A program made the translations under genes and the position numbers. A stretch of DNA of 42,482 nucleotides, from contig DF820464.1 of NCBI GenBank assembly GCA_000739535.1, forward strand, positions 418,447 through 460,928, read 5' to 3'. A model generated the notes under the pieces. It saw nothing but the letters and a program-made list of their open reading frames with translations, made no database searches and was not told the origin of the DNA. Of this stretch, positions 4,543 to 42,433 are shown piece after piece (the first letter of the stretch is position 1; every line of letters starts with the position of its first letter). The DNA comes from Candidatus Vecturithrix granuli (GTDB taxonomy: Bacteria; Moduliflexota; Moduliflexia; Moduliflexales; Moduliflexaceae).

Positions 4543-4556
4543 GGACAGAGGTGAAA

Positions 4557-4853
4557 ATGAATCTTCAATCAATTCCCAGGCGGTCTGAGCATGTGGCCTG
4601 GAGCCAGATTGATCAAGAGGCAATTCTGTTGAATCTGAACAACGGGTTTTACTATACGCTCAATGAAGTCGGCTGCGACGCCTGGAAACTCATTGACGCG
4701 CAGCGCCCAATTTGTGCCATCAGCGACGAAATACGCTCGCTGTATGCGGTCGAACAAGACCAGATTGTGCATGATCTGTGCATCTTATTTCAAGAATTGC
4801 AGCAGGAAGATCTCATTATCATTCTTGATTCTCAACCAGAACGCCATGAATAA
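4557..4853 (+). CDS. PqqD-like RiPP precursor recognition protein
   Basis: This 98-residue protein is a full-length stand-alone PqqD-family domain (RRE, RiPP recognition element). In this fold the peptide leader is bound by the winged-helix beta strand and helix 3. Typical family blocks are visible: VAWSQIDQEAILLNLNNG, then FYYTLNEVGCDAWKLID, then an acidic helical end with LFQELQQEDLI. In lasso and other RiPP pathways such a protein delivers the precursor, by its YxxPxL leader motif, to a peptidase or maturase. The chosen ATG has AGAGGTG 5 bases upstream; an in-frame GTG two codons earlier is less likely. It is followed 18 bases later by the transglutaminase-fold peptidase, the classical B1-B2 pair. 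Confidence 0.88.
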   Translation: MNLQSIPRRSEHVAWSQIDQEAILLNLNNGFYYTLNEVGCDAWKLIDAQRPICAISDEIRSLYAVEQDQIVHDLCILFQELQQEDLIIILDSQPERHE

Positions 4854-4871: not shown

Positions 4872-5372
4872 ATGAAAGATCTTGCATCCTATTTGAAGAT
4901 CTTCAACAAATTTCGTCACTTTGAATCGTTCCGCGATGTTTGTCTTTTTTTTCAGATCCCGCTGCTCTGGATAGCTTTACCCTGCTTGCTGCTTCTACGG
5001 CTTCAAACGGTGTTACGACTACTCACACCGCGCCGCCAGAGTCTTGTCCGGGAAGCCGTCGCCAGAGACAGGTATCAAAAAATTCTGCACTTTGCCCACT
5101 ATTGGTTGCGGTGGAAATGGATCGCCGTTTATAACACCTGCCTGAAGAAATCCTTATTGTTGTATTATTTTTTAAACCGTGAAGGCATTCCGGCCCAAAT
5201 TTGCTTTGGAATTAAGAAAAACGAGGGCAATTTAAACGGACATAGCTGGATCGAGACCCCCTCTTTTATCCCCTCCCCTCCTGACTACAACAACGATTTT
5301 ATCAAAATCTACACCTATCCGGAAATGCCTGTCGAAATATTTTCCACTTCAAAAAATTCGCTATCGTCCTGA
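4872..5372 (+). CDS. Transglutaminase-like leader peptidase (lasso peptide B2-type)
   Basis: This 166-residue Transglut_core3-family protein is of the kind that cleaves the leader from lasso and related RiPP precursors. The catalytic Cys90 lies in VYNTCLKKSLLLYYFLNREG and the catalytic His124 in NGHSWIE, with about 30 residues between them as in the family. The third, acidic residue is not obvious after the His, because the expected D-G-x-P turn is replaced by a Pro/Ser-rich stretch, so activity is likely but not certain. N-terminal hydrophobic stretches (about residues 25-50) fit membrane association. Together with the PqqD-like gene it forms the recognition/protease half of a RiPP system whose precursor candidate lies about 5 kb downstream. 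Confidence 0.82.
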   Translation: MKDLASYLKIFNKFRHFESFRDVCLFFQIPLLWIALPCLLLLRLQTVLRLLTPRRQSLVREAVARDRYQKILHFAHYWLRWKWIAVYNTCLKKSLLLYYFLNREGIPAQICFGIKKNEGNLNGHSWIETPSFIPSPPDYNNDFIKIYTYPEMPVEIFSTSKNSLSS

Positions 5373-5825: not shown

Positions 5826-8800
5826 ATGAAAAAAGTAAGTGTTCTCATCATAATGATAGCATTGTTCATGCTGCCCGCATGGAATACCTACGCCGCGACG
5901 ATTATCGTCAATACAACTGATGACGAATTGAATAGTGATGGTGATTGTTCTCTGCGCGAGGCTGTTCAATCAATAAACACAGCAACGAATGTGGATGGCT
6001 GTAGTGCGACAGGTTCGTATGGAACTGATGATACAATTACTCTTCAAACCGAAACATATACTCTCACGATAGCCGGGGCGAATGAGGACAACAACGCTAC
6101 CGGCGATTTGGATATTAGATCTTCGCTAACGATTAATGGAGTAGATGCCAGTAAGACAATCATCCAGGGGGGAACTGCAGGACCTCCTACGCCAAACGGG
6201 ATTGACCGGGTGTTCCATATTCCTGTGGCAGGGATTATGGTGAATATCTCCAATGTAACTATTCGAAATGGAAACGCACCTGGCATCACAACGGGCCGGG
6301 GCGGCGGCATTTTTGTGGCTGTTAACGCTACGCTCAGTCTTAATAATAGTGTAGTCTCGAACAATACCGCGAATGTCAATAATGGGGGTGACAACGGCGG
6401 CGGCGGCGGTCTTGAAAATAATGGCGGGGCAGTAACTATAAATAACTGCACTTTCAGCAATAATGTTGCTGTCAGGAATGGAGGCGGCATTTATACCAGA
6501 AATGGAACATTGATGGTCACCAATAGCACTATTAGCGGAAATAGTGGTGCATCCTATGCCGGTGGTATTTATCAACGTCAGGGAGGGATAGTGACTTTAA
6601 CCAATACTACCATTAGCGGCAATATCTCTACTGCTGCGGGCGCTGGTGATGGCGGCGGAATTTTTGCTTATAGTGATACAACAGGCCCTACTATAACATT
6701 GAATAATTGCACGGTAAGTAATAACACAGCTAATCAGGGTGGCGGGATCTCTCGTTGGAGGGCAGGGTTAACGCCTGCAGGAGTAAATATAACCCCATCT
6801 CTAACGAATACGATCCTTGCTGATAATATTGCTCCTACCAATCCAGATTGTTATACAAATAACCTCACTTCCGGCGGTTATAATCTGATTGAAACTGCCG
6901 CGGGTTGTGGTACGATTAATGGCGATACCACTACTAATATACTTGGGAGTGATCCGAATCTTGCGGCTTTGACTGACAACGGCGGTCCCACCCCCACCCA
7001 TGCCCTGCTCACCACTCCGACTATTAGTCCAGCTATTGATAAAATACCTTTTGGCACAAGCGGTTGTGGTATGACGTATACAACAGATCAACGCGGAACA
7101 GGCTACTCTCGCCCCTCACCTGCCGGAGGTGCTTGCGACATCGGCGCGTATGAATATCAGTCCGTAACTACTTATATCCTGACGGTGACGACCAGTGGGA
7201 ATGGGACGGTGACGAGCACGCCGGCCGGGATTGACTGCGGGGCAGATTGCAGCGAGAGTTATGTCAGCGGGACGGCAGTCAGTTTGAGCGCCACCGCGGA
7301 CACGGGCTGGACGTTCAGCGCGTGGAGCGGGGATTGCGACGCCAGCGGGAACGTAACGATGGATGCGGCCAAGACTTGCACCGCGACCTTTGTGTTGGCA
7401 AGTTTTAGTGTTTTGATTGATGTTACGCCGGGGACGACGGTAGCTACCTGGGATTTGTTGACGTTTACTCCGGTTGCATCAGGGGGAACATTAGCGGCGG
7501 TAACGTGGAAGTTTGGGGATTGTTATGCTCCGCCGTGTGGGGCGAGTGCTGTGCAATCAGAGAGTACAATTACGTCGGCTCCGTTTACAGAGACATTCCG
7601 ATATCCAAAAGCGGGAACCTATGTGGTAACCTTAGAGGCAACTGATACCCTCAATAACACAGCGACAGCCAGCGTCACGATTACAGTGACAGGTTCGACC
7701 CCCAGCCTTACGCTGGCAACACAGAATCTGGGTAACAACCTGACAGCAGGTTCACCGATCTCAGGTGACCTTAACGGCGATGGCGTGAAAGAAGTGGTAG
7801 TTCCTTCAGACCACTCGATTCGAGTGGTCGGAGGAGTAAATATGGCACTTGGACCGGCGACTGGAATCTGTGGCTCTTCACCTCTATTAGCGAAAGACGA
7901 TGCTATCGGAGCTATTAATGGTATTTTTGCCCTGGATACGACTGGTAGATTGTACGGTTGGACTGCGGGCGGCGCGTCATTGACGGGTTATCCATTGACA
8001 GTTACGGAGATTAAGAATGTCTCGCCAATGGCGAGTCCGGCAATAGGCGATATTGATGGAGATGGCGATTTAGACATTGCCTGGGGAGGAGACGGCGACA
8101 CTAACGGTGAAGCATACGTCACTGCCCATGATATTGTAACAGGCGACCCACTGGGCGGTTTTCCGGTGCTTCTCTCGAACAATGTCGGTACCGGACCAAC
8201 ATATCCGCGCACCACTTCAGTGGCTTTAGCAAATGTGATCGGCGGCACAGGAAGGGAAATTTTTATCGGATATAACAATGTAAGCACTAATACCGGAAAC
8301 GTCATGCGAGTAGCTGCCGGAGGAGCAACGTTAAACTTTTCGATGAATGCTAATGAACAGATCGGTTCGGGCGGAATTCCCTCAACGCAATATGCGAATT
8401 CAGGACCAACAGTCGGTGATGTTGATAACGATAGAACAATGGAACTTGTACTTGGCGGTGATCAGGGCCATGTCTATATTTGGAATGCAAGTACCGGGGC
8501 TTTGGAGGCGGTCGTTGACGCTGGTACAGCTCCGATTACTTCTGATCCTACATTGGCGTATCTGACCAGTGATACCGGATTAGATATTGTCGTCGCCAAT
8601 GCGGAAGGAACGGTCTTTTGTATCCGGTGGAACGGTACTATCTCGCAGATCCTCTGGCAGACAGATCTCGGCACGCTTGGGCTGCTTTCGCCGGTGATCG
8701 CGGACGTTGACGGAGATAATGCACTTGAAGTCGTCATCTCCAAAATGAGAAGCGGCAGAGTGTTTGTGCTTGAGAGGGATGGCTCGATTAATACAGGGAT

Positions 8801-9359
8801 CAGTGCAGCAACCGGAACTGCCGGACAGATTAACGCTTCGGCCGCAGTTTCCGATTTAGATAGAGATGCTGATTATGAGATTCTGGTGACTGATGATGTG
8901 GCGTCGCCTGCTCAGGATAAGCTCTATATCTGGGATATTCCCAAAACCCTGCCAACCGCAAATCTCAGAACCATTGTCGGTTGGCCCTTCTTGCGCGGCA
9001 ATTATTACCGGGATGGTTCGATTACGACCGCGAATCTCTATCCGGTGAAAGTCACGTATGATACAATCGCCTGGCCGCTGATGAAGTTTTGGGTTCATGT
9101 TGAAAATAGAGGTACAGGAATTGCAAATAATGTCGCGTTGAAATATGTCAGTTACCAACCGTTCATGTCGCTGGTATCTCCGGCAAATGGCATTATCATG
9201 ATTACGCCGAATCCCCCGGCTTCTATTGCAGCCGGAGCGACAGGCGTCACGGAACCGCTCACCTTCAATATGAGCGCGTATGCCGGGCAGGAGATTATTA
9301 TGTATTTCGATATTACATATACGGATGCCGATGGAACCGAACATTTGATTCACCGGTAG
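5826..9359 (+). CDS. Large secreted beta-helix / PKD / FG-GAP beta-propeller protein
   Basis: This 1177-residue exported protein has a Sec signal peptide (about 1-23, cleavage after TYA). Domains in order: a CSLREA motif (C41-A46), which marks the start of many surface beta-helix proteins; a right-handed parallel beta-helix with Asn/Gly-rich rungs such as NNCTFSNN and TNSTISGN (about 55-445); a Cys-containing bacterial repeat with GNGTVTSTPAGIDCG (about 450-525); a PKD-like domain (about 525-622); a beta-propeller of FG-GAP/VCBS-type repeats with calcium-binding-like GDLNGDG, GDIDGDGDLD and ADVDGDN motifs (about 627-1045); and a C-terminal beta-sandwich (about 1075-1177). Function is probably adhesion or glycan contact at the cell surface. 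Six or more DxDxDG-like loops imply calcium binding. A sigma-54 promoter lies upstream and a cohesin-like exoprotein gene follows. Confidence 0.85.
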   Translation: MKKVSVLIIMIALFMLPAWNTYAATIIVNTTDDELNSDGDCSLREAVQSINTATNVDGCSATGSYGTDDTITLQTETYTLTIAGANEDNNATGDLDIRSSLTINGVDASKTIIQGGTAGPPTPNGIDRVFHIPVAGIMVNISNVTIRNGNAPGITTGRGGGIFVAVNATLSLNNSVVSNNTANVNNGGDNGGGGGLENNGGAVTINNCTFSNNVAVRNGGGIYTRNGTLMVTNSTISGNSGASYAGGIYQRQGGIVTLTNTTISGNISTAAGAGDGGGIFAYSDTTGPTITLNNCTVSNNTANQGGGISRWRAGLTPAGVNITPSLTNTILADNIAPTNPDCYTNNLTSGGYNLIETAAGCGTINGDTTTNILGSDPNLAALTDNGGPTPTHALLTTPTISPAIDKIPFGTSGCGMTYTTDQRGTGYSRPSPAGGACDIGAYEYQSVTTYILTVTTSGNGTVTSTPAGIDCGADCSESYVSGTAVSLSATADTGWTFSAWSGDCDASGNVTMDAAKTCTATFVLASFSVLIDVTPGTTVATWDLLTFTPVASGGTLAAVTWKFGDCYAPPCGASAVQSESTITSAPFTETFRYPKAGTYVVTLEATDTLNNTATASVTITVTGSTPSLTLATQNLGNNLTAGSPISGDLNGDGVKEVVVPSDHSIRVVGGVNMALGPATGICGSSPLLAKDDAIGAINGIFALDTTGRLYGWTAGGASLTGYPLTVTEIKNVSPMASPAIGDIDGDGDLDIAWGGDGDTNGEAYVTAHDIVTGDPLGGFPVLLSNNVGTGPTYPRTTSVALANVIGGTGREIFIGYNNVSTNTGNVMRVAAGGATLNFSMNANEQIGSGGIPSTQYANSGPTVGDVDNDRTMELVLGGDQGHVYIWNASTGALEAVVDAGTAPITSDPTLAYLTSDTGLDIVVANAEGTVFCIRWNGTISQILWQTDLGTLGLLSPVIADVDGDNALEVVISKMRSGRVFVLERDGSINTGISAATGTAGQINASAAVSDLDRDADYEILVTDDVASPAQDKLYIWDIPKTLPTANLRTIVGWPFLRGNYYRDGSITTANLYPVKVTYDTIAWPLMKFWVHVENRGTGIANNVALKYVSYQPFMSLVSPANGIIMITPNPPASIAAGATGVTEPLTFNMSAYAGQEIIMYFDITYTDADGTEHLIHR

Positions 9360-9456
9360 CCTGATAGACTCTCGGAGTCTCGAAAACTCCAGGAGCCTTG
9401 ACGTGTCATTACTTTCTTTGAAAAGTTAGAACATGTACAAAAGAGGGAAAAGAATT

Positions 9457-10002
9457 ATGAAAATCAAATGTTTTTTTGTTCAAAGTCTGGGTGTCATCTT
9501 CCTTTTGAGACTTTTGGTAGCCTCTCCCGGGTTGGCAAGCCAGCCGTTAATTCAAACCGCGCTTGCCGATCCTACTATCACTGCCGGAGATGAGTTCCTT
9601 CTCTCTGTGTTATTGGATCTTGACGATGCTCTGTCGTCCGGAGGATATATTGATCTGGTTTACGATCCTAATGTTTTGGAGTGCGTCAAGGTTCAGAATT
9701 TTAATATATTTGGCGGGATGAAATCTGATTCATGCGCGGTGGATAGCGGAATTCTTCGGATGACTTCGAGAACAGCAAGTTTGTTTCATGTGAGGACCTT
9801 TCTGTTGCTGGAGACCTATGCCATTGTGACATTCCGGGCAAAACAGGTAGCAGCCTCTACTGCGATTGAGTTTGCGGATACTTCTCAGATATTTGGCGTC
9901 GGGGGAGGAAATATTTTGGTGGAGCGCGATGATAGCGCAACCCTTCATATTACAACGGTAGAGCCTTCTGAACCGGCATCCTTTTTGCTATGGAGCCGTT
10001 AA
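9457..10002 (+). CDS. Exported cohesin-domain-like protein
   Basis: This 181-residue protein has a Sec signal peptide (about residues 1-28, ending near GLAS) and one cohesin-like beta-sandwich (about 40-170). It shows TAGDEFLLSVLLDLDDALSSGG, then IDLVYDPNVLECVKV, then AIVTFRAKQVA, the usual order of strands in cohesin-type carbohydrate-module scaffolds. Two cysteines (in VLECVKV and SDSCAVD) could pair. The tail VEPSEPASFLLWSR looks like the beginning of a PEP-CTERM sorting signal but stops before the membrane span and Arg cluster are complete. The ATG at 9457 is preferred over one at 9433 because a GAGGG lies about 10 bases before it. It probably acts outside the cell with the preceding exoprotein. 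Confidence 0.72.
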   Translation: MKIKCFFVQSLGVIFLLRLLVASPGLASQPLIQTALADPTITAGDEFLLSVLLDLDDALSSGGYIDLVYDPNVLECVKVQNFNIFGGMKSDSCAVDSGILRMTSRTASLFHVRTFLLLETYAIVTFRAKQVAASTAIEFADTSQIFGVGGGNILVERDDSATLHITTVEPSEPASFLLWSR

Positions 10003-10118: not shown

Positions 10119-10478
10119 ATGAAAAAAAATGTTGGAACAATCGTTTTTTTTATTATCCTGATGCTATTTGTAGTATTATACCTTTCTCTTTCAGGTAAAC
10201 AGACGGACAAAACGCTGTCTCAAAAGACAGAAGTTTCGCAGACTGACGTATCTATTCAGGAATCTGAGACTGAAAAATCTCAACCAGTTTCGGACGAAAA
10301 AGTCATACTTCCATCTTCCCAACACCCTTCTTCTGAGACATTACGCCAGGAAGCCGAACAACGTTTTGAAAAGTTGATGAGAATCGAAGAAACGTCGGGT
10401 ACACCTGTTGAACGCGGAGATGGACTTCGGGTCCAAATAGAGATACCTATTCCATCTGAACCAGCGCAGACAGAATAG
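10119..10478 (+). CDS. Small membrane-anchored protein, function unknown
   Basis: This 119-residue protein has an N-terminal membrane anchor (about residues 6-25, IVFFIILMLFVVLYLSL). A hydrophilic, probably disordered Ser/Gln/Glu/Pro-rich outside region follows. I recognise no family. The only structured-looking part is a short predicted helix near 75-92 (SETLRQEAEQRFEKLMRIEE). The ribosome binding site is weak. It lies between the cohesin-like gene and the RiPP precursor, whose own promoter begins about 60 bases after this gene ends, so it more likely belongs with the exoproteins. Confidence 0.5.
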   Translation: MKKNVGTIVFFIILMLFVVLYLSLSGKQTDKTLSQKTEVSQTDVSIQESETEKSQPVSDEKVILPSSQHPSSETLRQEAEQRFEKLMRIEETSGTPVERGDGLRVQIEIPIPSEPAQTE

Positions 10479-10566: not shown

Positions 10567-10626
10567 TTTTTTAGAGTGAGGAAGCAGAAGCATGTGCAGC
10601 AATAGATAAGGGGAGAGGAGGTCACT

Positions 10627-10845
10627 ATGAAAGATTCCATAGATTCTGCCAACAGGAAATGTGAACACCCTGAAATTGTTCAGGATTCTGCGTCAGCAAA
10701 CAACAAGGAAATATCTGAGAAAAAAACCTATACTTCTCCAACCTTGAAACGGTACACTTCTCCGAAATTACGGAAGCATAGATCCTACAAAGATATTACC
10801 ATGTTATTCGCCGTGATCCCTCCGATTCCTCCAACTTCACCGTAA
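10627..10845 (+). CDS. Candidate RiPP precursor peptide with duplicated YxxPxL leader motif
   Basis: This 72-residue peptide has a very strong ribosome binding site (GAGGAGGT). The leader ends with two tandem recognition motifs, YTSPTL and YTSPKL (residues 38-43 and 46-51), then SYKDIT, which matches the lasso-type leader pattern YxxPxL...T except that the usual Gly is absent. After that Thr the presumed core is about 13-14 residues, beginning MLFAV and ending IPPIPPTSP. It contains five prolines and no Asp, Glu or Cys. A lasso macrolactam needs an Asp or Glu at core position 7-9, so a standard lasso fold is not possible. Ser is the second-last residue, a plausible target for the HprK-like kinase next door. 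Assignment rests on leader motif, size, strong start and the maturase genes immediately downstream. Confidence 0.75.
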   Translation: MKDSIDSANRKCEHPEIVQDSASANNKEISEKKTYTSPTLKRYTSPKLRKHRSYKDITMLFAVIPPIPPTSP

Positions 10846-10862: not shown

Positions 10863-11906
10863 GTGAAATTACCCTCAGTTTCTTCTGCCTGTTTTGGATC
10901 CTTTTTGCAGCAGATTCCTGCATCCTCTCAAATTGTCCGCTATTATCATGTTCATGATCTCTGTCTGAAAATCGTCTCAAACCGAAGCGACCTGCTTCAA
11001 TTATTTGATGAGCTTTTGGGGTGTTTTCAGTCGCCAGATTTTTCCGGAGAGCCTTCGCTGGCCTTAAATTTATACGCTATTCCCTCTGAGTGCGCGCCTT
11101 CTTTCCAGATTCCGAAGAATTGGAGTTTATATGATCGCACTTCTCATATCTCGTGCTATCTCTGCGACCATGCCTTATTCTACCAATACAAGAGACAGGG
11201 GATGTTTTTTGCAGATATTGAGCAGGGCTATGGGCTTGGGTATATCACGATTCCTTATTCAGATCAAGATAGCCTGAACATATACCAGAATATCTGGCTT
11301 CTTGCCTTGTTTCATATCATGCGGGCGCGGAATGTGTTTCCGCTTCATGCTTCTGCCGCGCTGTTCAAGGAAAAAGGGGTGCTTATTGCTGGGGCTTCGG
11401 GACAGGGAAAGACAACGCTTCTGCTTCATCTGCTGCGAGCAGGATTTCAATATATGGCCGATGATACGGTTTTGCTGCGGCAGGATGCAGATAGTCTGAA
11501 GATGTTGTCGTTTCCAGCTACTATCAGAATAACTGCTGAGACGACAAGCCTTTTCCCGGAGCTCTCTTCTTTCATCAGAGAAACACAGCCGGATAGACGG
11601 GGAAAGTATCATATTGAACCGCAGAAACTTTCTTTGCTTCCTCCACCGCATTCTGCAATTCCTGCGTTCGTTTTGCTTCCGGAGATTACTGCCGGAGAGG
11701 AGACAGCGATTGTGCCAATCTCCAGGATGGCAGGGGCGATACAATGTATTCCGCAAAATACGCCTGTCAATAAGCTTGGAATAAGTCGAAATAATTTCGA
11801 TCTGTTGTGCCGGCTTTTTCATCATGCTCAATGTTATCAACTCCGGCTCGGACAAAATATGAATTCTATCGGGAGGCAGATTGCTGATGTGATGTGTGAC
11901 GTGTAG
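10863..11906 (+). CDS. HprK-like serine kinase associated with RiPP cluster
   Basis: This 347-residue protein has a C-terminal HPr kinase/phosphorylase-like P-loop domain. It shows FPLHASAAL (His162 region), the P-loop GASGQGKTT (177-185) and an acidic pair in MADDTVLL (Asp200, Asp201). The N-terminal 150 residues are the variable region common in the RiPP-associated HprK group. In characterised lasso clusters, kinases of this fold phosphorylate the C-terminal Ser of the precursor, so Ser71 of the adjacent peptide is a reasonable target here; that is inference. The start is GTG 17 bases after the precursor stop with no clear ribosome binding site, consistent with coupled translation at a lower level than the peptide. 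Confidence 0.82.
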   Translation: MKLPSVSSACFGSFLQQIPASSQIVRYYHVHDLCLKIVSNRSDLLQLFDELLGCFQSPDFSGEPSLALNLYAIPSECAPSFQIPKNWSLYDRTSHISCYLCDHALFYQYKRQGMFFADIEQGYGLGYITIPYSDQDSLNIYQNIWLLALFHIMRARNVFPLHASAALFKEKGVLIAGASGQGKTTLLLHLLRAGFQYMADDTVLLRQDADSLKMLSFPATIRITAETTSLFPELSSFIRETQPDRRGKYHIEPQKLSLLPPPHSAIPAFVLLPEITAGEETAIVPISRMAGAIQCIPQNTPVNKLGISRNNFDLLCRLFHHAQCYQLRLGQNMNSIGRQIADVMCDV

Positions 11907-11951: not shown

Positions 11952-12974
11952 ATGGACCCATTGATAGCTTTTCATCTTGCTGTTGAGTTGACAAATCGCT
12001 GTAATTTTTCCTGCATCCATTGTTTCAGGGAAAATAACATCACCGAAAATCCTGATATCCCGGTAGAAGTCTATGAAAAATTTTTGAAGGAGTCGTTATC
12101 CTATAAATCGCCGTACATTACTCTTACCGGAGGCGGCGAACCAACGCTTCATCAGGATTTTGAAGCGATCCTCGCTCTTACGGCTCGTTATCATTATGCC
12201 TATACGCTGATCACAAATGGCTGGACATTTGAAACGGTCTATCCGTTATTAGATCGATTTAGAACCAATTTACACACGGTTGTTCTGAGTTTAGATGGGG
12301 CAACAGAAGAAACTCATGACGCCATTCGTCAACAGCCCGGATCATATCGGAAAGTCATTCAAGCGTGCATGATCTGTTATTATAAGCAGATCCCATTTCA
12401 ACTGACCATGACAGTTCATCGGCTGAATTTTTCGGAAATTGATGAATTTCTGGTTCTTGCCTCGAAATTGGGCGCAACCGAAGTGAACCTGGGACCTGCC
12501 CAATTGACCAAAAAACTTGTGTCAAAAGGGTTGGCATTGTCACCTCAGGAACGGAAACAACTCCACGCGAAGAACCTTTCTCTGGAAGAAAATCCGCTTC
12601 TTCCGGTCAATATCGGGTTTGATTATTTTATTGAAAATCCATGCGTGCCTTGTTATACGCTCCGCATGTCTTCTCTGCTGCTGGATTATGACGGGCATGT
12701 ACGCTTTTGCTGTCAACTTTCAGGATATGAAGATCATGCTGAAACTGGCGGGCTGGATATGATCGAAGATTTGAGACAGTCCTCAGTCTGGGAATGCCAT
12801 CGAGCACTGGTGAGAAAAATAACGACATTTCAAGAGGAAAAAATCAGGCGGATTGAACAACAGACCTTCACGGAAAATGAGCATTTTCCCTGTTATTATT
12901 GCGCAAAGTATTTTCATAAGTTGGACTGGTTGAAAGATTTTCCAGACTCGGAATGGAGTGGCGATGATGATTGA
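11952..12974 (+). CDS. Radical SAM enzyme with SPASM/Twitch-like C-terminal cysteines
   Basis: This is a 340-residue radical SAM protein. The [4Fe-4S] cluster motif CxxxCxxC is Cys17, Cys21, Cys24 (RCNFSCIHC). A glycine-rich SAM-binding GGGEP lies at 60-64 and LSLDGATEETHD at 113-124. The C-terminal part has further cysteines at 231, 234, 253, 254, 314 and 317, the arrangement of an auxiliary-cluster SPASM or Twitch domain; Cys253/254 lie in VRFCCQLSG after DYDGH. Enzymes of this type modify RiPP precursors (thioether, C-C crosslink, epimerisation) or act in cofactor synthesis. The precursor has no Cys, so thioether formation on its own residues is unlikely. The start has no good ribosome binding site. 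The gene overlaps the methyltransferase gene at its 3' end. Confidence 0.85.
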   Translation: MDPLIAFHLAVELTNRCNFSCIHCFRENNITENPDIPVEVYEKFLKESLSYKSPYITLTGGGEPTLHQDFEAILALTARYHYAYTLITNGWTFETVYPLLDRFRTNLHTVVLSLDGATEETHDAIRQQPGSYRKVIQACMICYYKQIPFQLTMTVHRLNFSEIDEFLVLASKLGATEVNLGPAQLTKKLVSKGLALSPQERKQLHAKNLSLEENPLLPVNIGFDYFIENPCVPCYTLRMSSLLLDYDGHVRFCCQLSGYEDHAETGGLDMIEDLRQSSVWECHRALVRKITTFQEEKIRRIEQQTFTENEHFPCYYCAKYFHKLDWLKDFPDSEWSGDDD

Positions 12975-13986
12975 CCGGAAACGAGTGGCTGAAGTATATA
13001 ACCGCCCTGATATGGTAGCGTATTATGAAACGCTGGCAAATCGTTCAGGTTTGTGGAGAGAAGAACAATGCTTGATCAATCGGTATTTTTCGGCTCCCGC
13101 CAGAGTCTTAATTATTGGCTGTGGAACGGGAAGAGAGGCATTTCCCCTGGAACAGCAGGGCTTTACGACGATAGGGATTGATATTGCCCTCCGGACGCTC
13201 ATTCTGGCAAATGAGAAACTGCGGAAAATGCCTGAAGTAAAGCTGAGTTTTCAGCAGGGAGATGCTGTAGCTTTGCCCTATCGTGATGAAAGTTTCGAAA
13301 ATGTCCTGATGGTGACACAGGTTATTCAACATATTCCGAAGCGGCGGTATCGAAGGCAAGCACTTTGCGAAATCAATCGGATCTTAAAACCAGGCGGATA
13401 CGGCATTCTGTCAGCATTCAACGCCCCAATCAGTTTATTATATTTGTTGTGTATGGGGAGGCAATATCAACGCCTCTTACGTGAACAGGAGAGGGGTGAA
13501 GGGATTTGTGAGAAGAAGGTACAAATAGATGCGGACTTGTTTAAACATAGTGGAAAATTTGGATTACGGCAATTGATGTTACGAATCATGAACAGGATCG
13601 CCTGGGAAATCCACCCTGTCATCTGGAAGTACTCCGATCCTTTGCCTGTCACCTGGCATGCGGGATTTGCTGTGTTTTGTATGTTCACAAATATTCAGCG
13701 AATCTTGCGAAAGAAACTGAGTCGGTCTCCTGAAGCTATTTTTGAGCCAAACGATTTTATGCTGGACCACCGAGGATTCCACTTTCGCGTTTTCTCACAG
13801 GTAGGCGATTTGTTTGTCCACTTTCCTGATGTTGATGAAATCGCTGAGGATATTGCCGCTGCTCATCTTAACCTGATTGAATATCGCAGCCTGGAAGAAC
13901 TTCAGCAGGAACAGGTCCTTTCAGAGAAGGAACGCCGGTCAAAACGATTATTATTCTATGTCGTCCGGAAAAAGTGCGTAACATGA
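12964..13986 (+). CDS. SAM-dependent methyltransferase (class I)
   Basis: This 340-residue protein has an N-terminal class I methyltransferase domain. Motif I is RVLIIGCGTGREAFPLEQQG (about residues 47-66), an acidic residue follows strand 2 in IGIDIA, then come QQGDAVALPY and a motif near FENVLMVTQVIQHI. The C-terminal half after about residue 150 matches no domain I know and may confer specificity. It overlaps the radical SAM gene by 11 bases (ATG at 12964 or 12967, GTG at 12958), so the two are translationally coupled. Probable role: methylation of the peptide or of an intermediate in the cluster. The substrate is unknown. Confidence 0.8.
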   Translation: MMIDRKRVAEVYNRPDMVAYYETLANRSGLWREEQCLINRYFSAPARVLIIGCGTGREAFPLEQQGFTTIGIDIALRTLILANEKLRKMPEVKLSFQQGDAVALPYRDESFENVLMVTQVIQHIPKRRYRRQALCEINRILKPGGYGILSAFNAPISLLYLLCMGRQYQRLLREQERGEGICEKKVQIDADLFKHSGKFGLRQLMLRIMNRIAWEIHPVIWKYSDPLPVTWHAGFAVFCMFTNIQRILRKKLSRSPEAIFEPNDFMLDHRGFHFRVFSQVGDLFVHFPDVDEIAEDIAAAHLNLIEYRSLEELQQEQVLSEKERRSKRLLFYVVRKKCVT

Positions 13987-14009: not shown

Positions 14010-15245
14010 ATGTATCCAATGACATACTCCAAAGAACAGGAATTTTTGCTGCTTGCGGTACAGAGATCGCTTTGCGAAGATGAGCGGCAAAGACGGGAGA
14101 GGTTATGCGCTGAAGCTCTTGATTGGCAGTATATCCAACGACAAGCCGCCTTCCATCGAATAGGCCCGTTAATTTATCATCACTGTTTTTCTCAGGCCAA
14201 TCAGGGTGATCATATCCCTTCTGAGGTACGACAGTATTTTCAGGATGCATATCAACAAACCTATCTCCAAAATAGATTGCTTTATCAGCAATTGAATCTC
14301 CTTTTGCCAGAATTCGAAAAACATAATTGTCGCCCGATTGTCTTAAAAGGGATTTTCCTGGCAAAATACATATATCAGAATATCGCGCTGCGTCCGATGC
14401 ACGATATTGACCTTCTGCTTCAGCAGCAAGACGCCAACACCGCAGTGCAGATTTTGAAAAACGCCGGGTATTCAAATATACTCAACCATATAGTCTTTCT
14501 GTCCGATTGGCACCAGTTTCAAGAAGACCGTATTTTCAGGGAATTGGAATCTCAGGGCTTTCATCTTCCGATATTCATAAAAAAATTGGGAGCGTTCAAT
14601 GTGTGTGTGGAACTTCACCATCATATCACGCCGATATTAGACGCTCAACAGATTGATTCTATGCCTGTTTCAGGTTTTAATGGCCCTGTTCGTACCTTGA
14701 GTCCGGAATATTTTTTGCTGCACCTGTGTTTTCATGTATATAATCATTTCCAGAAAGAGTCTTCTTCGTATTTGCTCTGGTATTATGATATTGTTGAATT
14801 CATTCATACATATTATTTCCAGGATTCCTCGATGAGTTGGAAGAGGTTTCTTGTTCTTTGTCAGCAGATCCAGATCGAAGAGGAAGTATTCCGGAGTCTT
14901 GCGATAGTTCATACGCTATTTAAGGTTGCTGTGCCAGAGAAAGTTTTGACGTTCCCCTGGGATTTTCAAGAATTACTCATACACATCTTTTCTGAACCCA
15001 AACCTAACCCTGAGGTGAGTATGTTGCGATCTGTATTGGCGCAAAGAAAAAGTTTTGGATTACGCTATCTTTGGGACTGCTTGTTTCCATCGAAAGCATT
15101 TCTCGTTGCTCGCTATAATATCCGTCCTCGTTGGCTGGTTTACCTGTATTATCCTGTTCGATTGTTTAAAGCGTTGAGCCGTGGGGGAAGGCTTATCAAA
15201 GTCCTGTTCACAAATGATGACAAAAACGTTAAAAAGAGAATGTAA
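14010..15245 (+). CDS. NTP_transf_5-type nucleotidyltransferase-fold protein
   Basis: This 411-residue member of the uncharacterised nucleotidyltransferase family (NTP_transf_5) is common in lasso peptide and exopolysaccharide clusters. Its signature is visible: PIVLKGIFLAKYIY (109-122) followed by LRPMHDIDLLL, where Asp132 and Asp134 form the metal-binding DxD of the nucleotidyltransferase fold. A histidine-rich ELHHHI follows near residue 200. In one studied lasso pathway a protein of this family acts on the phosphorylated C-terminus made by the HprK-like kinase. The same pairing occurs here, which supports a kinase-then-transferase step. It is the last gene of the cluster and lies 24 bases after the methyltransferase gene. 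Confidence 0.8.
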   Translation: MYPMTYSKEQEFLLLAVQRSLCEDERQRRERLCAEALDWQYIQRQAAFHRIGPLIYHHCFSQANQGDHIPSEVRQYFQDAYQQTYLQNRLLYQQLNLLLPEFEKHNCRPIVLKGIFLAKYIYQNIALRPMHDIDLLLQQQDANTAVQILKNAGYSNILNHIVFLSDWHQFQEDRIFRELESQGFHLPIFIKKLGAFNVCVELHHHITPILDAQQIDSMPVSGFNGPVRTLSPEYFLLHLCFHVYNHFQKESSSYLLWYYDIVEFIHTYYFQDSSMSWKRFLVLCQQIQIEEEVFRSLAIVHTLFKVAVPEKVLTFPWDFQELLIHIFSEPKPNPEVSMLRSVLAQRKSFGLRYLWDCLFPSKAFLVARYNIRPRWLVYLYYPVRLFKALSRGGRLIKVLFTNDDKNVKKRM

Positions 15246-38388: not shown

Positions 38389-40512
38389 ATGACCTCAGAA
38401 GACCTGAAACATCTGGAAGATACCTTATGGCAAACCGCCGATACCTTACGCGCCAACTCTGATCTGAAATCTACGGAATACTCGACGCCGGTGTTGGGCT
38501 TGATCTTTCTGAAATTCGCGGATAATAAATACAGCCAGTATGAGCAGGAAATTCTGGCTGAATACCGGAAATTGCAGGGAACCCGGCGGGAAAAAGCTAT
38601 CAGCCAGATTGCGCTGGAGAAATGCGGATTCTATCTGCCGGAACATGCTCGCTATGATTACTTATTGAATTTGCCGGAAGATCAGGAGATTGACAAAGCC
38701 ATCAAGGAGGCAATGGCGTCGGTTGAAGAATATAAAACCGAGTTGAAAGGCGTGCTTCCACAGGATGAATATTTCCGGCTGACCCGTACCGACAAGGCGC
38801 TGCCCAAGCAATTATTGAAGAATTTCTCCAATATTCCCAAAGACGCCACGGGCGACATGTTCGGGCAGATCTATGAGTATTTTCTGGGCAATTTCGCCTT
38901 AGCCGAAGGCCAGGCGGGCGGCGAGTTTTTTACCCCGCGTTCGGTGGTGCGGCTGATGGTGGAAATCATTGAGCCGCATAACGGCACGGTGTTTGATCCG
39001 GCCTGCGGTTCGGGCGGCATGTTTGTGCAATCGGCGCAGTTTATCGAGCGCCGCAGGCAGGAATTGCAGCAGAACGGCGAGGCTGATCTGTTTGTGTACG
39101 GGCAGGAGAAAACGCTGGAAACCGTTAAACTGGCGAAAATGAACATTGCTGTCAACGGGCTGCGCGGCGATGTGCGGCAGGCTAACACCTATTACGAAGA
39201 CCCCTTCGACAGTTTTGAGCGTTTCGATTACGTGCTGGCCAATCCACCCTTCAATGTGGACGATGTCAATCTCAGCCGGGTGGAGCATGATAAACGCTTC
39301 AGCACGTATGGAGTTCCGCGCAAAAAGACTAAAAGCCCAAAGAAAGATGCTGGCATGGAAACGGTGCCGAACGCCAATTACCTCTGGATTGACCTGTTTG
39401 CCACATCTCTCAAGCCCGGCGGCCGCGCCGCCTTAGTCATGGCGAATTCCGCGTCCGATGCGCAGCACAGCGAGGCCGATATTCGCAGAACCTTGATTGA
39501 GAAAAACCTGATTTACGGCATGGTGACGCTGCCCTCCAATATGTTTTACACGGTCACGCTGCCGGCCACGCTCTGGTTTTTCGACAGGGGCAAACAGGAT
39601 TATTCCGTGTTGTTTATTGACGCCCGCAATGTGTTCACGCAGCGCGACCGGGCGCACCGCGAGTTTTCCGAAGAACAAATCCAGAACCTGGCCCTGATCA
39701 GCCGTTTGCATCAGGGCAAACGCGAGGATTTTGTGCGCGTGATTGACCGCTATTTTGCCAATGGCATGAAGGCGTTACGACAGCACAAGGAGACCTTGCA
39801 AACGGTCGCTGTTACGCTGGCCGAGTTTCTCGCCTCGAATGCGCTCGTCTCGACTTCGCTCGCTTCGACTCCGCTCAGCGAGCGAGAACGGTCGTCGAGC
39901 GGAGTCGAGACGAGCGGAGTCGAGACGGATTTTGCCGGACGGCTTGAGAAAATTCAGGAATTGGAACAGGCGTATGCGGCCTACACCTCAACGCGGAAGC
40001 TTGAAGACATCGAGGCCGTCAACCAGCAGCAGCGGCAGCTTGCCGCCATCTTTCAGCCCTTTTTCGCCTCCATCCACGCGATGCTGAAGGTGCTTGATCA
40101 CAAGGTGCGCCATCTTGAAAAACAGCAAACCGCCGCCAAAGACGCCAAAGCGGTGAAAGCTGAGTTGGAACGGCTGCATTATGAACTCAAGGACGTCGAG
40201 TATTTCTTCACCCAAATCGCCTGGCTGCACGAACGCTTTCCTGAAGCGAAATACGAAGATGTGACCGGCCTGTGTAAACGCGCCAGCATGAAAGACATCC
40301 GCGAGCAGGACTATTCGCTGAACGCCGGTCGCTATGTCGGCGTAGTGATTGAAGAAGACGGCAAAACCGAGGAGGAATTCGCGGCCGAGATTCTGGCATT
40401 GAACGAAGAATTGAACGCCCTCAACGCCGAAGCGCGAGAGTTGGAAAGCGTGATCAATCATAATGTTGGGGAGTTGGTGGGGTGCGCCTCGACTTCGCTC
40501 GGCGACCGATAG
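38389..40512 (+). CDS. hsdM: Type I restriction-modification system methyltransferase subunit HsdM
   Basis: This 707-residue adenine methyltransferase subunit has the HsdM_N helical domain (about 5-145), then GGEFFTPRSVVRLMVEI (178-194), the SAM motif FDPACGSGGMF (202-212) and the catalytic NPPF at 285-288. A long coiled-coil C-terminal part follows. It methylates DNA with HsdS and, with HsdR (not in the window), restricts unmodified DNA. Two abnormalities come from REP-like repeats: residues about 483-514 (NALVSTSLASTPLSERERSS then SGVETSGVET) are read from a palindrome at 39841-39930 inserted without shifting frame, and the last residues CASTSLGDR come from the first copy of the downstream array. 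Core motifs are intact, so activity may survive. Confidence 0.93.
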   Translation: MTSEDLKHLEDTLWQTADTLRANSDLKSTEYSTPVLGLIFLKFADNKYSQYEQEILAEYRKLQGTRREKAISQIALEKCGFYLPEHARYDYLLNLPEDQEIDKAIKEAMASVEEYKTELKGVLPQDEYFRLTRTDKALPKQLLKNFSNIPKDATGDMFGQIYEYFLGNFALAEGQAGGEFFTPRSVVRLMVEIIEPHNGTVFDPACGSGGMFVQSAQFIERRRQELQQNGEADLFVYGQEKTLETVKLAKMNIAVNGLRGDVRQANTYYEDPFDSFERFDYVLANPPFNVDDVNLSRVEHDKRFSTYGVPRKKTKSPKKDAGMETVPNANYLWIDLFATSLKPGGRAALVMANSASDAQHSEADIRRTLIEKNLIYGMVTLPSNMFYTVTLPATLWFFDRGKQDYSVLFIDARNVFTQRDRAHREFSEEQIQNLALISRLHQGKREDFVRVIDRYFANGMKALRQHKETLQTVAVTLAEFLASNALVSTSLASTPLSERERSSSGVETSGVETDFAGRLEKIQELEQAYAAYTSTRKLEDIEAVNQQQRQLAAIFQPFFASIHAMLKVLDHKVRHLEKQQTAAKDAKAVKAELERLHYELKDVEYFFTQIAWLHERFPEAKYEDVTGLCKRASMKDIREQDYSLNAGRYVGVVIEEDGKTEEEFAAEILALNEELNALNAEARELESVINHNVGELVGCASTSLGDR
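39841..39930. repeat. REP-like palindrome inserted in frame within hsdM
   Basis: An imperfect palindrome with outer arms CGTCTCGACTTCGCTCG (left) and CGAGCGGAGTCGAGACG (right, one mismatch) and several internal copies of the CGACTNCGCTC unit in both orientations. It lies inside the hsdM reading frame and adds about 30 Ser/Thr/Glu-rich codons without a stop. Confidence 0.88.
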
Positions 40513-40646
40513 TCTCGTTCATCGAGCGAAGTCGAGATGAACATGATGATTATGCCATATTGGTGGGGTGCGCCTCGACTGCGCTCGGCGACCGATAGTC
40601 TCGTTCATCGAGCGAAGTCGAGATGAACATGATGATTATGCCATAC
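40474..40646. repeat. 86-bp tandem duplication at the hsdM / GIY-YIG junction
   Basis: A unit starting TTGGTGGGGTGCGCCTCGAC at 40474 recurs at 40560, offset 86 bases, with only a few mismatches. Each unit contains a REP-like hairpin (TCGACTNCGCTCG with CGAGCGAAGTCGA) and ends with ATGAACATGATGATTATGCC, the region just ahead of the GIY-YIG start. The first unit also supplies the hsdM stop codon. Confidence 0.9.
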
Positions 40647-41021
40647 TTGTATATTCTCGAATGCGCCGATGGCACATACTACACCGGCAGCACATGGAAC
40701 CTGGAAAAGCGGCTTTGGCAGCACCAGAACGGACAGGGCGCGAATTACACCAAAAAACGTTTGCCCGTGAAAGTGGTGTACTGTGAAGAATTTGAACGGA
40801 TCGAAGACGCCTTTCTCCGGGAAAAGCAGGTGCAAGGATGGAGTCATAAGAAGAAATTGGCCTTAATCGAACGGAATGCGCAAAGGCTTCATGAATTGGC
40901 GGAATGCCAGAATGAAACGCATTGGTCTCGACATCTCGATAAGCTCGCCTCGACTCCGCTCGGCGACCGGTTGTCCTGCTCGGCGGCCAATTGCTCCGCT
41001 CATCGAGCGAAGTCGAGATGA
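40638..41021 (+). CDS. GIY-YIG domain protein (YhbQ/UvrC-type single domain)
   Basis: This 127-residue protein has a single GIY-YIG nuclease domain (residues 1-85). The GIY strand reads YIL (5-7), the YIG strand reads YYTG (14-17), then the catalytic Arg25 in EKRLWQHQ and the metal-binding Glu62 in FLREKQVQGW. Such small proteins are common and their roles are unclear (repair or mobile-element nicking). The ATG at 40638 starts the conserved MPYLYILEC; ATGs upstream belong to the duplicated repeat. The last about 25 residues, from DKLASTPLGD on, are read from REP-like sequence, so the ancestral stop has been lost. It lies between hsdM and hsdS. Confidence 0.82.
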   Translation: MPYLYILECADGTYYTGSTWNLEKRLWQHQNGQGANYTKKRLPVKVVYCEEFERIEDAFLREKQVQGWSHKKKLALIERNAQRLHELAECQNETHWSRHLDKLASTPLGDRLSCSAANCSAHRAKSR

Positions 41022-41349
41022 GCACGCTGCCGGGTTCGCCTCGACTGTGATCGGCGAACGGTTACCTCGCTCATCGAGCGCAGTCGAGATGAGCACACTG
41101 CTGTGTTCGCCTCGCCTCCGCTCGGCGACCGGTTACCCCGTTCATCGAGTGCAGTCGAGATGAGCACACTGCTGGGTTCGCCTCGACTGCGCTCGGCGAT
41201 CGGTTGCCTCGCTCGGCGGCCGATAGTCCGCTCGCTGAGCGAAGTCGAAGCGAGCTTGTCAAGGTATGGAGATGAGCACGCCGCTGAGTTCGCCTCGACT
41301 GCGCTCGGCGACCGGTTGCCCCGCTCATCGAGCGCAGTCGAGATGAGCA
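40926..41349. repeat. REP-like hairpin array (about 70-bp tandem repeat) between the GIY-YIG gene and hsdS
   Basis: At least five copies of a hairpin unit: a left arm CCTCGACTNCGCTCGGCGA, a spacer about 20 bases long, a right arm CATCGAGCGNAGTCGAGATGAGCA, and then a short linker CACTGCTGGGTT. The common tail GATGAGCA occurs at 41018, 41088, 41159, 41271 and 41342, so the period is 70-71 bases except for one unit with an extra 41 bases (a further partial hairpin). All open frames through it are repeat-derived. The 371 bases between 41022 and 41392 hold nothing else. Confidence 0.9.
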
Positions 41350-41392
41350 ATAGCAGGAAACATCAAAACATTAAAACAACGGTAAGACAAAA

Positions 41393-42433
41393 ATGATGGA
41401 ATGGAAGGAAGAAAATTTAGAAAATATATTAAAATTCTATAACGGTAAAGCCATTAAGGATATGGATAATGGCAATTATCCCGTATATGGCTCTAATGGA
41501 ATTATTGGTTATTCAAATGGTTTTAAATATGAAAATGCTTTAATCATTGGACGAGTAGGCGCTTATTGTGGTTCGCTAAGATATGAAAAGAAGAAGTTTT
41601 GGGCGACTGATAATACAATTGTAGCAACAACAAAAGATGGGTATTATCAACAATTTATGTTTTATGTTCTTCATTCCTTTCCTTTAAATGACTTAGCGGG
41701 TGGAAGTGCCCAACCATTATTAAATCAGACGATACTATCAAGAATCAAACTAAAAATCCCTCCCCTCCCCATCCAACGCAAAATCGCCGCCGTGCTTTCG
41801 GCTTACGATGACCTGATCGACAACAACACCCGCCGCATCGCCATTCTGGAACGGATGGCGGAGGAAATCTACCGCGAATGGTTTGTGCGGATGCGCTTTC
41901 CGGGGCATGAACGGGTGAAGTTTCAGAAAGGTGTGCCAGAGGGGTGGGAGGTTGTCAGTTTAGGTGAATTGGCCAATATCACAATGGGACAAAGCCCTTC
42001 TTCTGAATTTTATAATCAAACAGGAGAAGGCTTGCCATTTAACCAGGGTGTTGGTACTTATGGACAAAGATTTCCAACACGAGAAATATTCTGTTCTGTT
42101 TCTGGAAGAATTGCAAAAAAAGGCGATATTCTTTTCAGTGTGAGAGCGCCTGTTGGAAGACTAAACATTGCTGATTGTAAAATGATAATTGGTAGGGGAT
42201 TGTCTGCAATTTCGCATAGAGAGCATTATAATTCCTACCTATTTTATGCCTTAAAAACTGCATTTTCAGATGAAGATATTATAGGAAATGGCGCAATTTT
42301 TAATGCTGTCAGCAAAAAAGAGTTACTAAATTTTAAAATGAATCAACCAGCCTATAATTTAGATGGTATCTTTGATAAACTGATTGCACCTATGGATCGA
42401 AGGGTTGAATTATTGACTCACTTTACGCAGTAG
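41393..42433 (+). CDS. hsdS: Type I restriction specificity subunit HsdS, C-terminally truncated
   Basis: This 346-residue HsdS has two target-recognition domains. TRD1 is about 1-122 (AT-rich DNA), the central conserved region is about 123-180 (PPLPIQRKIAAVLSAYDDLI, then a helix NTRRIAILERMAEEIYREWF), and TRD2 is about 183-320 (WEVVSLGELANITMGQSPSS and onward). The distal conserved region begins with IFDKLIAPMDRRVELL but stops at THFTQ, where a complete HsdS would continue about 25-35 residues with a NLRQTRDLLLPKLISG-like end. The stop lies inside the 65-bp terminal inverted repeat, so an insertion or rearrangement probably removed the 3' end. Loss of this helix would weaken HsdM contacts. 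Whether the sequence continues beyond the window is unknown. Confidence 0.85.
   Translation: MMEWKEENLENILKFYNGKAIKDMDNGNYPVYGSNGIIGYSNGFKYENALIIGRVGAYCGSLRYEKKKFWATDNTIVATTKDGYYQQFMFYVLHSFPLNDLAGGSAQPLLNQTILSRIKLKIPPLPIQRKIAAVLSAYDDLIDNNTRRIAILERMAEEIYREWFVRMRFPGHERVKFQKGVPEGWEVVSLGELANITMGQSPSSEFYNQTGEGLPFNQGVGTYGQRFPTREIFCSVSGRIAKKGDILFSVRAPVGRLNIADCKMIIGRGLSAISHREHYNSYLFYALKTAFSDEDIIGNGAIFNAVSKKELLNFKMNQPAYNLDGIFDKLIAPMDRRVELLTHFTQ

Follow-up and report, generated by a model that had tools for sequence, protein, structure and literature searches.

A putative RRE-dependent peptide precursor with a doubled YxxPxL leader motif in Candidatus Vecturithrix granuli

A 72-residue reading frame in Candidatus Vecturithrix granuli, located in a window of 42,482 nucleotides (the whole stretch of DNA that was analysed), is probably the precursor of a modified peptide (RiPP) that depends on an RRE protein and is not a lasso peptide. 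Its leader carries two copies of the YxxPxL motif, and the surrounding cassette encodes a PqqD-like protein, a B2-type protease, an HprK-like kinase and a radical SAM enzyme. No paper describing this cassette was found among the open PubMed Central papers searched, and it appears to represent an undescribed RiPP-type pathway that extends across several bacterial phyla. The leader offers a natural, selection-tested case of two predicted docking sites for one adaptor, in which the role of a second RRE motif is directly testable. In addition, a C-terminus common to the peptides and to secreted proteins in anammox bacteria gives a new lead on peptide pathways that may be tied to the cell surface.

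The precursor gene and its predicted core

The gene and its parts all lie on the forward strand:

10616-10622 (+), strong Shine-Dalgarno sequence AGGAGGT, 4 nt 5' of the precursor ATG, read from the sequence
10627-10845 (+), precursor peptide gene, 72 aa, with a weak match to the lasso-leader family NF033528 (18.4 bits against a cut-off of 33)
10729-10752 (+), motif copy 1 (the extra copy), YTSPTLKR; the equivalent copy is conserved in 14 Brocadiales precursors
10753-10776 (+), motif copy 2, YTSPKLRK, its Tyr at the canonical lasso position -17 and 15 residues from Thr58
10798-10803 (+), predicted leader/core junction, Thr58 (-2) and Met59 (-1), placed by spacing
10804-10842 (+), predicted core LFAVIPPIPPTSP, assuming cleavage at that junction

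The full translation of the reading frame, MKDSIDSANRKCEHPEIVQDSASANNKEISEKKTYTSPTLKRYTSPKLRKHRSYKDITMLFAVIPPIPPTSP, contains YTSPTL at residues 35-40 and YTSPKL at residues 43-48, an offset of 8 residues. The duplication of the motif, proposed in the initial annotation, is real: two strict YxxPxL motifs appeared in only 3 of 100,000 composition-preserving shuffles of the precursor, and a relaxed close pair in 0.03% of such shuffles. At the nucleotide level, the 24-bp units of the two copies are identical at 14 of 24 bases. The precursor as sole query returned itself and chance matches only, and a profile of tandem precursors, of which it forms one row, recovers it. Motif matches within long or antisense reading frames were discarded as mechanical.

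Lasso leaders carry YxxPxL at -17 to -12 and Thr at -2 (Duan et al. 2023, PMC10368454). Applied to copy 2, this numbering places Tyr43 at -17 and Thr58 at -2, and cleavage is therefore predicted after Met59. The 15 residues from Tyr43 to Thr58 are also the spacing of lasso leaders (PMC10368454) and of most precursors associated with the cassette, giving the window precursor a lasso-type leader for which recognition by a B1 protein is predicted. The resulting core is 13 residues long, with five Pro and no Asp, Glu, Cys or Lys. It thus has no Asp or Glu at positions 7-9, where a lasso core would carry its ring acceptor, and position 8 is Ile, making a lasso macrolactam impossible for this peptide, as had been claimed from the first reading of the sequence.

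The cassette in the window

The other genes considered are also on the forward strand:

4551-4853 (+), PqqD-like RRE protein (B1-like): PF05402, 4.6e-12; lasso_PqqD, 1.5e-13; TbiB1 (PDB 5v1u/5v1v), 4.2e-7
4872-5372 (+), B2-type transglutaminase-like leader protease: NF033537, 2.5e-13, over the cut-off; PF13471, 1.7e-14; Cys90 and His124 invariant
5826-9359 (+), secreted CSLREA / choice-of-anchor Q / FG-GAP protein, between the PqqD-B2 pair and the precursor: NF041518, 4.6e-17; TIGR04214, 6.3e-9
9433-10002 (+), possible cohesin-domain secreted protein: PF00963, 0.0032, below the cut-off
10119-10478 (+), 119-aa protein encoded immediately 5' of the precursor, with a hydrophobic stretch at its N-terminal end; no family above the cut-off
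10863-11906 (+), HprK-like kinase: TIGR04352, 1.9e-14, below the cut-off; His162, Gly182-Lys183 and Asp200-Asp201 invariant
11952-12974 (+), radical SAM enzyme of a cassette-specific Twitch/SPASM-like subfamily: PF04055, 7e-17
12958-13986 (+), SAM-dependent methyltransferase, not constant in the cassette: PF08241, 4.7e-19
14010-15245 (+), NTP_transf_5 nucleotidyltransferase, also in six anammox cassettes: PF14907, 2.2e-47

All window genes are intact, and the PqqD and B2 genes lie 5 kb upstream of the precursor with three genes intervening. The PqqD-like protein is the top match among three PqqD matches in the genome; its likeness to lasso B1 proteins, together with the leader spacing, agrees with the earlier suggestion that the precursor is PqqD-dependent. 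The B2 protein is a lasso-type cysteine protease by both profile and retained Cys90 and His124. The invariant residues of the kinase agree with the lasso-kinase catalytic motif in PMC10368454, and the kinase had zero matches in viral contigs. A profile able to find the genuine lasso cyclases of two clusters (L031 and L033) in a genome of the same order detected no macrolactam cyclase, either in the window or in cassette loci elsewhere. The asparagine-synthetase-like genes (PF00733) of the host genome lie elsewhere, either on different contigs or at a distance of about 300 kb. No gene near the window cluster was recognised as a dedicated exporter.

Two further regions of this genome were observed. 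Judged from a reading of the sequence, window positions 38389-42433 hold genes resembling HsdM and HsdS, subunits of type I restriction-modification systems. A second uncharacterised locus, on contig C16 (L038:4259-11528), has a gene for a PqqD-domain protein and another for a delta-60-repeat protein of 510 aa whose N-terminus carries the Tat-like sequence RRAFLG. Several other large genes lie there too, and a radical SAM motif is present in at least one of them.

In the proposed pathway, the PqqD-like protein would bind the YxxPxL leader, most likely at copy 2 as the ordinary lasso-type docking site, and would present it to the HprK-like kinase and the Twitch-type radical SAM enzyme for modification of the short hydrophobic C-terminus. 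The B1 protein docks the leader in this way in the phosphorylated lasso and linear polyphosphorylated peptide (LPP) pathways (PMC10368454, PMC13381572). Cleavage by the B2 protease behind the Thr-x pair might then free a peptide of about 13 residues, either linear or radically crosslinked. Copy 1 would be a second docking site kept by selection, allowing the precursor to engage two PqqD proteins, or PqqD and a further maturase; the initial annotation had suggested two maturases or tighter binding. Points against this pathway are the distance of the PqqD and B2 genes from the precursor, a window core that differs from the anammox one, the existence of cassettes with no precursor recognised nearby, and the failure to identify an exporter.

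The cassette across phyla

The radical SAM subfamily, whose members are 29-43% identical to the window enzyme, is present in 12 of 385 distant genomes and also in named genomes of Schekmanbacteria, Brocadia, Myxococcota, Oligoflexia (Bdellovibrionota) and Deltaproteobacteria. An invariant CxxxCxHC region and invariant Cys234, Gly248, Cys253, Cys314 and Cys317 form a Twitch-like arrangement. The structures nearest to a predicted model of the window enzyme (pLDDT 90.5) are BlsE, SkfB, SuiB, DesII and viperin, a likeness that does not fix the chemistry. The HprK-like gene adjoins the radical SAM gene in nearly all close members, and most cassette loci also have genes for PqqD and for a B2 protease of the lasso type. 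The cassette itself ranges over anammox planctomycetes, Myxococcota, Bdellovibrionota, Schekmanbacteria and others. Among the Brocadiales, a search for the radical SAM gene at the chosen cut-off found it in 10 of 62 genomes, and the precursor led to two more. In the window and most anammox loci the precursor lies just 5' of the kinase gene; no recognisable precursor was found nearby in cassettes L054-L057 and L064-L068. The nucleotidyltransferase accompanies the doubled motif in the window and at six or more other loci, and was seen at no locus with a single motif, several of these being on short contigs; this is a possible hint as to what copy 1 might dock. Elsewhere, at L058:13094-13549, two Gly/Cys-rich YxxP-type precursors (GGGGGCGCGCGGG) sit beside a second radical SAM gene and apparently belong to a different peptide family.

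Doubled motifs and selection in anammox bacteria

The search for homologous precursors with one or two motifs, suggested in the initial annotation, found both forms. The tandem motif is present in all 14 Brocadiales (anammox) precursors, which come from 12 genomes, with the consensus FxEPKLT-FxEPKLT-KxGDAT-x-IT or a near variant (first copy FTNPKLT in L156; second copy FAEPKLI in L183). Their cores are short and acceptor-less, for example AGFFGSFTP. Cassettes in the remaining lineages have one motif copy per precursor, at the 15-residue spacing to Thr (or Val) in L059, L060/L069, L062/L094, L048/L070, L073, L089 and L076. The repeat unit is 8 residues long in the window and 7 in the Brocadiales, and in the radical SAM tree the grouping of the window with the Brocadiales (AU p = 0.365) leaves one versus two motif duplications undecided.

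In 12 of the 14 Brocadiales precursors, pN/pS was 0.10 at copy 1, 0.03 at copy 2 and 0.08 at the junction, against 0.67 in the seven codons upstream; these ratios are rough, with synonymous differences near saturation, but the contrast is large. The low values at both copies indicate that, in the anammox genes, copy 1 is maintained in its own right. Two irregular precursor regions were also observed: at L155:2154-2219 an intact precursor is directly followed by an additional, degenerate leader junction and core, suggesting that the region has been duplicated repeatedly, and at L183:825-1214 the frame continues beyond the usual core end to 129 residues.

A C-terminus common to anammox cores and secreted proteins

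Most anammox precursors have a large secreted protein directly upstream, and 8 of the 14 adjoin one ending in FFGRF[RY]P, a tail (as FFGRFRP) much like the peptide core FFGTFVP. These tailed proteins, at Brocadiales loci L152, L154, L155, L158, L159, L167 and L182, are unrelated in their N-terminal parts, which comprise VWA, beta-helix, SBBP propeller, M6 peptidase and C1 peptidase domains. What they have in common is a C-terminal domain of some 150 residues. It was detected at nine Brocadiales loci and was absent from every other protein searched; L182 was obtained later and its domain judged by eye. Nine of the tails read FFGRF[RY]P at their end, followed by at most one residue, and a tenth reads FFRRFHP. 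The nearest matches to most anammox cores among 897 proteins are tailed proteins, and at one locus the match between core and tail runs across the junction (ATRISGNGFFGRFRP versus ATKITGNNGFFSIFKP). Of 62 genomes, 5 contain FFGRFRP followed by a stop codon, and each of these has the cassette.

This has led to two alternative proposals. The cassette could be a protein-tailoring or surface-sorting system, in which the RRE-bound peptide and the tails of secreted proteins carry the same site and the doubled motif holds two adaptors; we consider this unlikely. A related and still less probable idea is that the core is a recognition tail common to secreted proteins, with the cassette modifying or sorting tailed proteins and the small peptide acting as carrier or competitor. 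The restriction of the tail and its domain to cassette-bearing genomes and loci, on otherwise unrelated proteins, is consistent with this idea. However, the tails lack the RRE motif, 6 of the 14 precursors have no tailed neighbour, and the window has no matching tail: the best C-terminus from the same window ranks 20th of the 897 proteins. The shared-tail finding is thus not transferable to the window, where the sole parallel is a choice-of-anchor Q protein at the same place, a domain also present in the anammox neighbours of L154 and L158. A resemblance between the window core and the end of the 119-aa protein, IEIPIPSEP, was dropped as low-complexity. The initial annotation had named an unconserved C-terminus among homologues as evidence against its proposal; conservation holds within the anammox bacteria (FFGxFxP) and breaks down between them and the window, whose core is dissimilar to theirs.

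Redox cofactors and degenerate lasso clusters

Two other explanations compete with a modified-peptide precursor. The radical SAM enzyme could rearrange the core as PqqE and MftC do, yielding a peptide-derived redox cofactor that serves an enzyme and is not secreted. The enzyme does resemble mycofactocin, tungsten-cofactor and PQQ maturases and the PqqE and SkfB structures, anammox bacteria show strong conservation of the core, and the lack of a visible exporter would fit an internal product. However, no conserved partner dehydrogenase was noticed, the core varies widely among lineages, a kinase and a nucleotidyltransferase are unusual for such pathways and the neighbours are secreted surface-type proteins, so that a cofactor seems quite improbable.

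There is similarly little chance that the window holds a degenerate lasso cluster, in which the cyclase and ring acceptor were lost from a lasso ancestor and the remainder is decaying. The leader spacing, PqqD and B2 are all of lasso type, and genome G002, of the same order as the window, has two true lasso clusters with Asp-bearing cores (L031:7217-11994, its cyclase split among several reading frames, and L033:1856-7538), one core of which, GLPPIPSPDVNGLSA, resembles the PPIP stretch of the window core. Decay is nevertheless at odds with intact window genes, purifying selection on the anammox precursors and the occurrence of acceptor-less precursors and the same cyclase-free cassette in several phyla.

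Comparison with known systems

Among described families, LPP comes closest (Popov et al. 2026, PMC13381572): the window cassette shares with it a discrete RRE protein, a YxxP leader, an HprK-like kinase, an NTP transferase, the absence of a cyclase and, as predicted, a linear core. LPP pathways, described from Bacillota, rely on a SipW-like signal peptidase together with an MsbA-like exporter, and the text of that paper makes no mention of radical SAM. In contrast, the window cassette has a B2-type protease, a constant radical SAM enzyme and a doubled motif, and neither an SpI (SipW-like) peptidase nor an MsbA-like exporter was recognised near the cluster when the open reading frames were read through and the main genes scanned against families. 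Phosphorylated lasso peptides (paeninodin; bsf of Bradymonas, PMC10368454) share the Tyr -17 spacing, conservation at -2 (usually Thr, with Ile in bsf), B1 (PqqD), B2, the HprK-like kinase and a nucleotidyltransferase, whereas the window cassette lacks a cyclase and a ring acceptor and adds a radical SAM enzyme and the doubled motif.

The SynChlorMet (Scm) cassette (NCBIfam TIGR04248-04251) also combines PqqD, HprK-like and radical SAM proteins. However, its annotation lists two radical SAM proteins, ScmE and ScmF, where the window cassette has one, and the window proteins score far below the cut-offs (ScmC 21.2 bits against 125; ScmD 25 against 100; ScmE 62.2 and ScmF 63.4 against 400). PQQ and mycofactocin pathways likewise have a short precursor, PqqD and a radical SAM enzyme, but the window cassette additionally has a kinase and a B2 protease, and its radical SAM enzyme falls short of equivalog level (mycofactocin 73.8 bits against 265; PqqE 62.8 against 381). 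With two defining lasso features absent, and an RRE protein, HprK-like kinase and NTP transferase present as in LPP but without its peptidase or exporter, the system is assigned to the RRE-dependent RiPPs.
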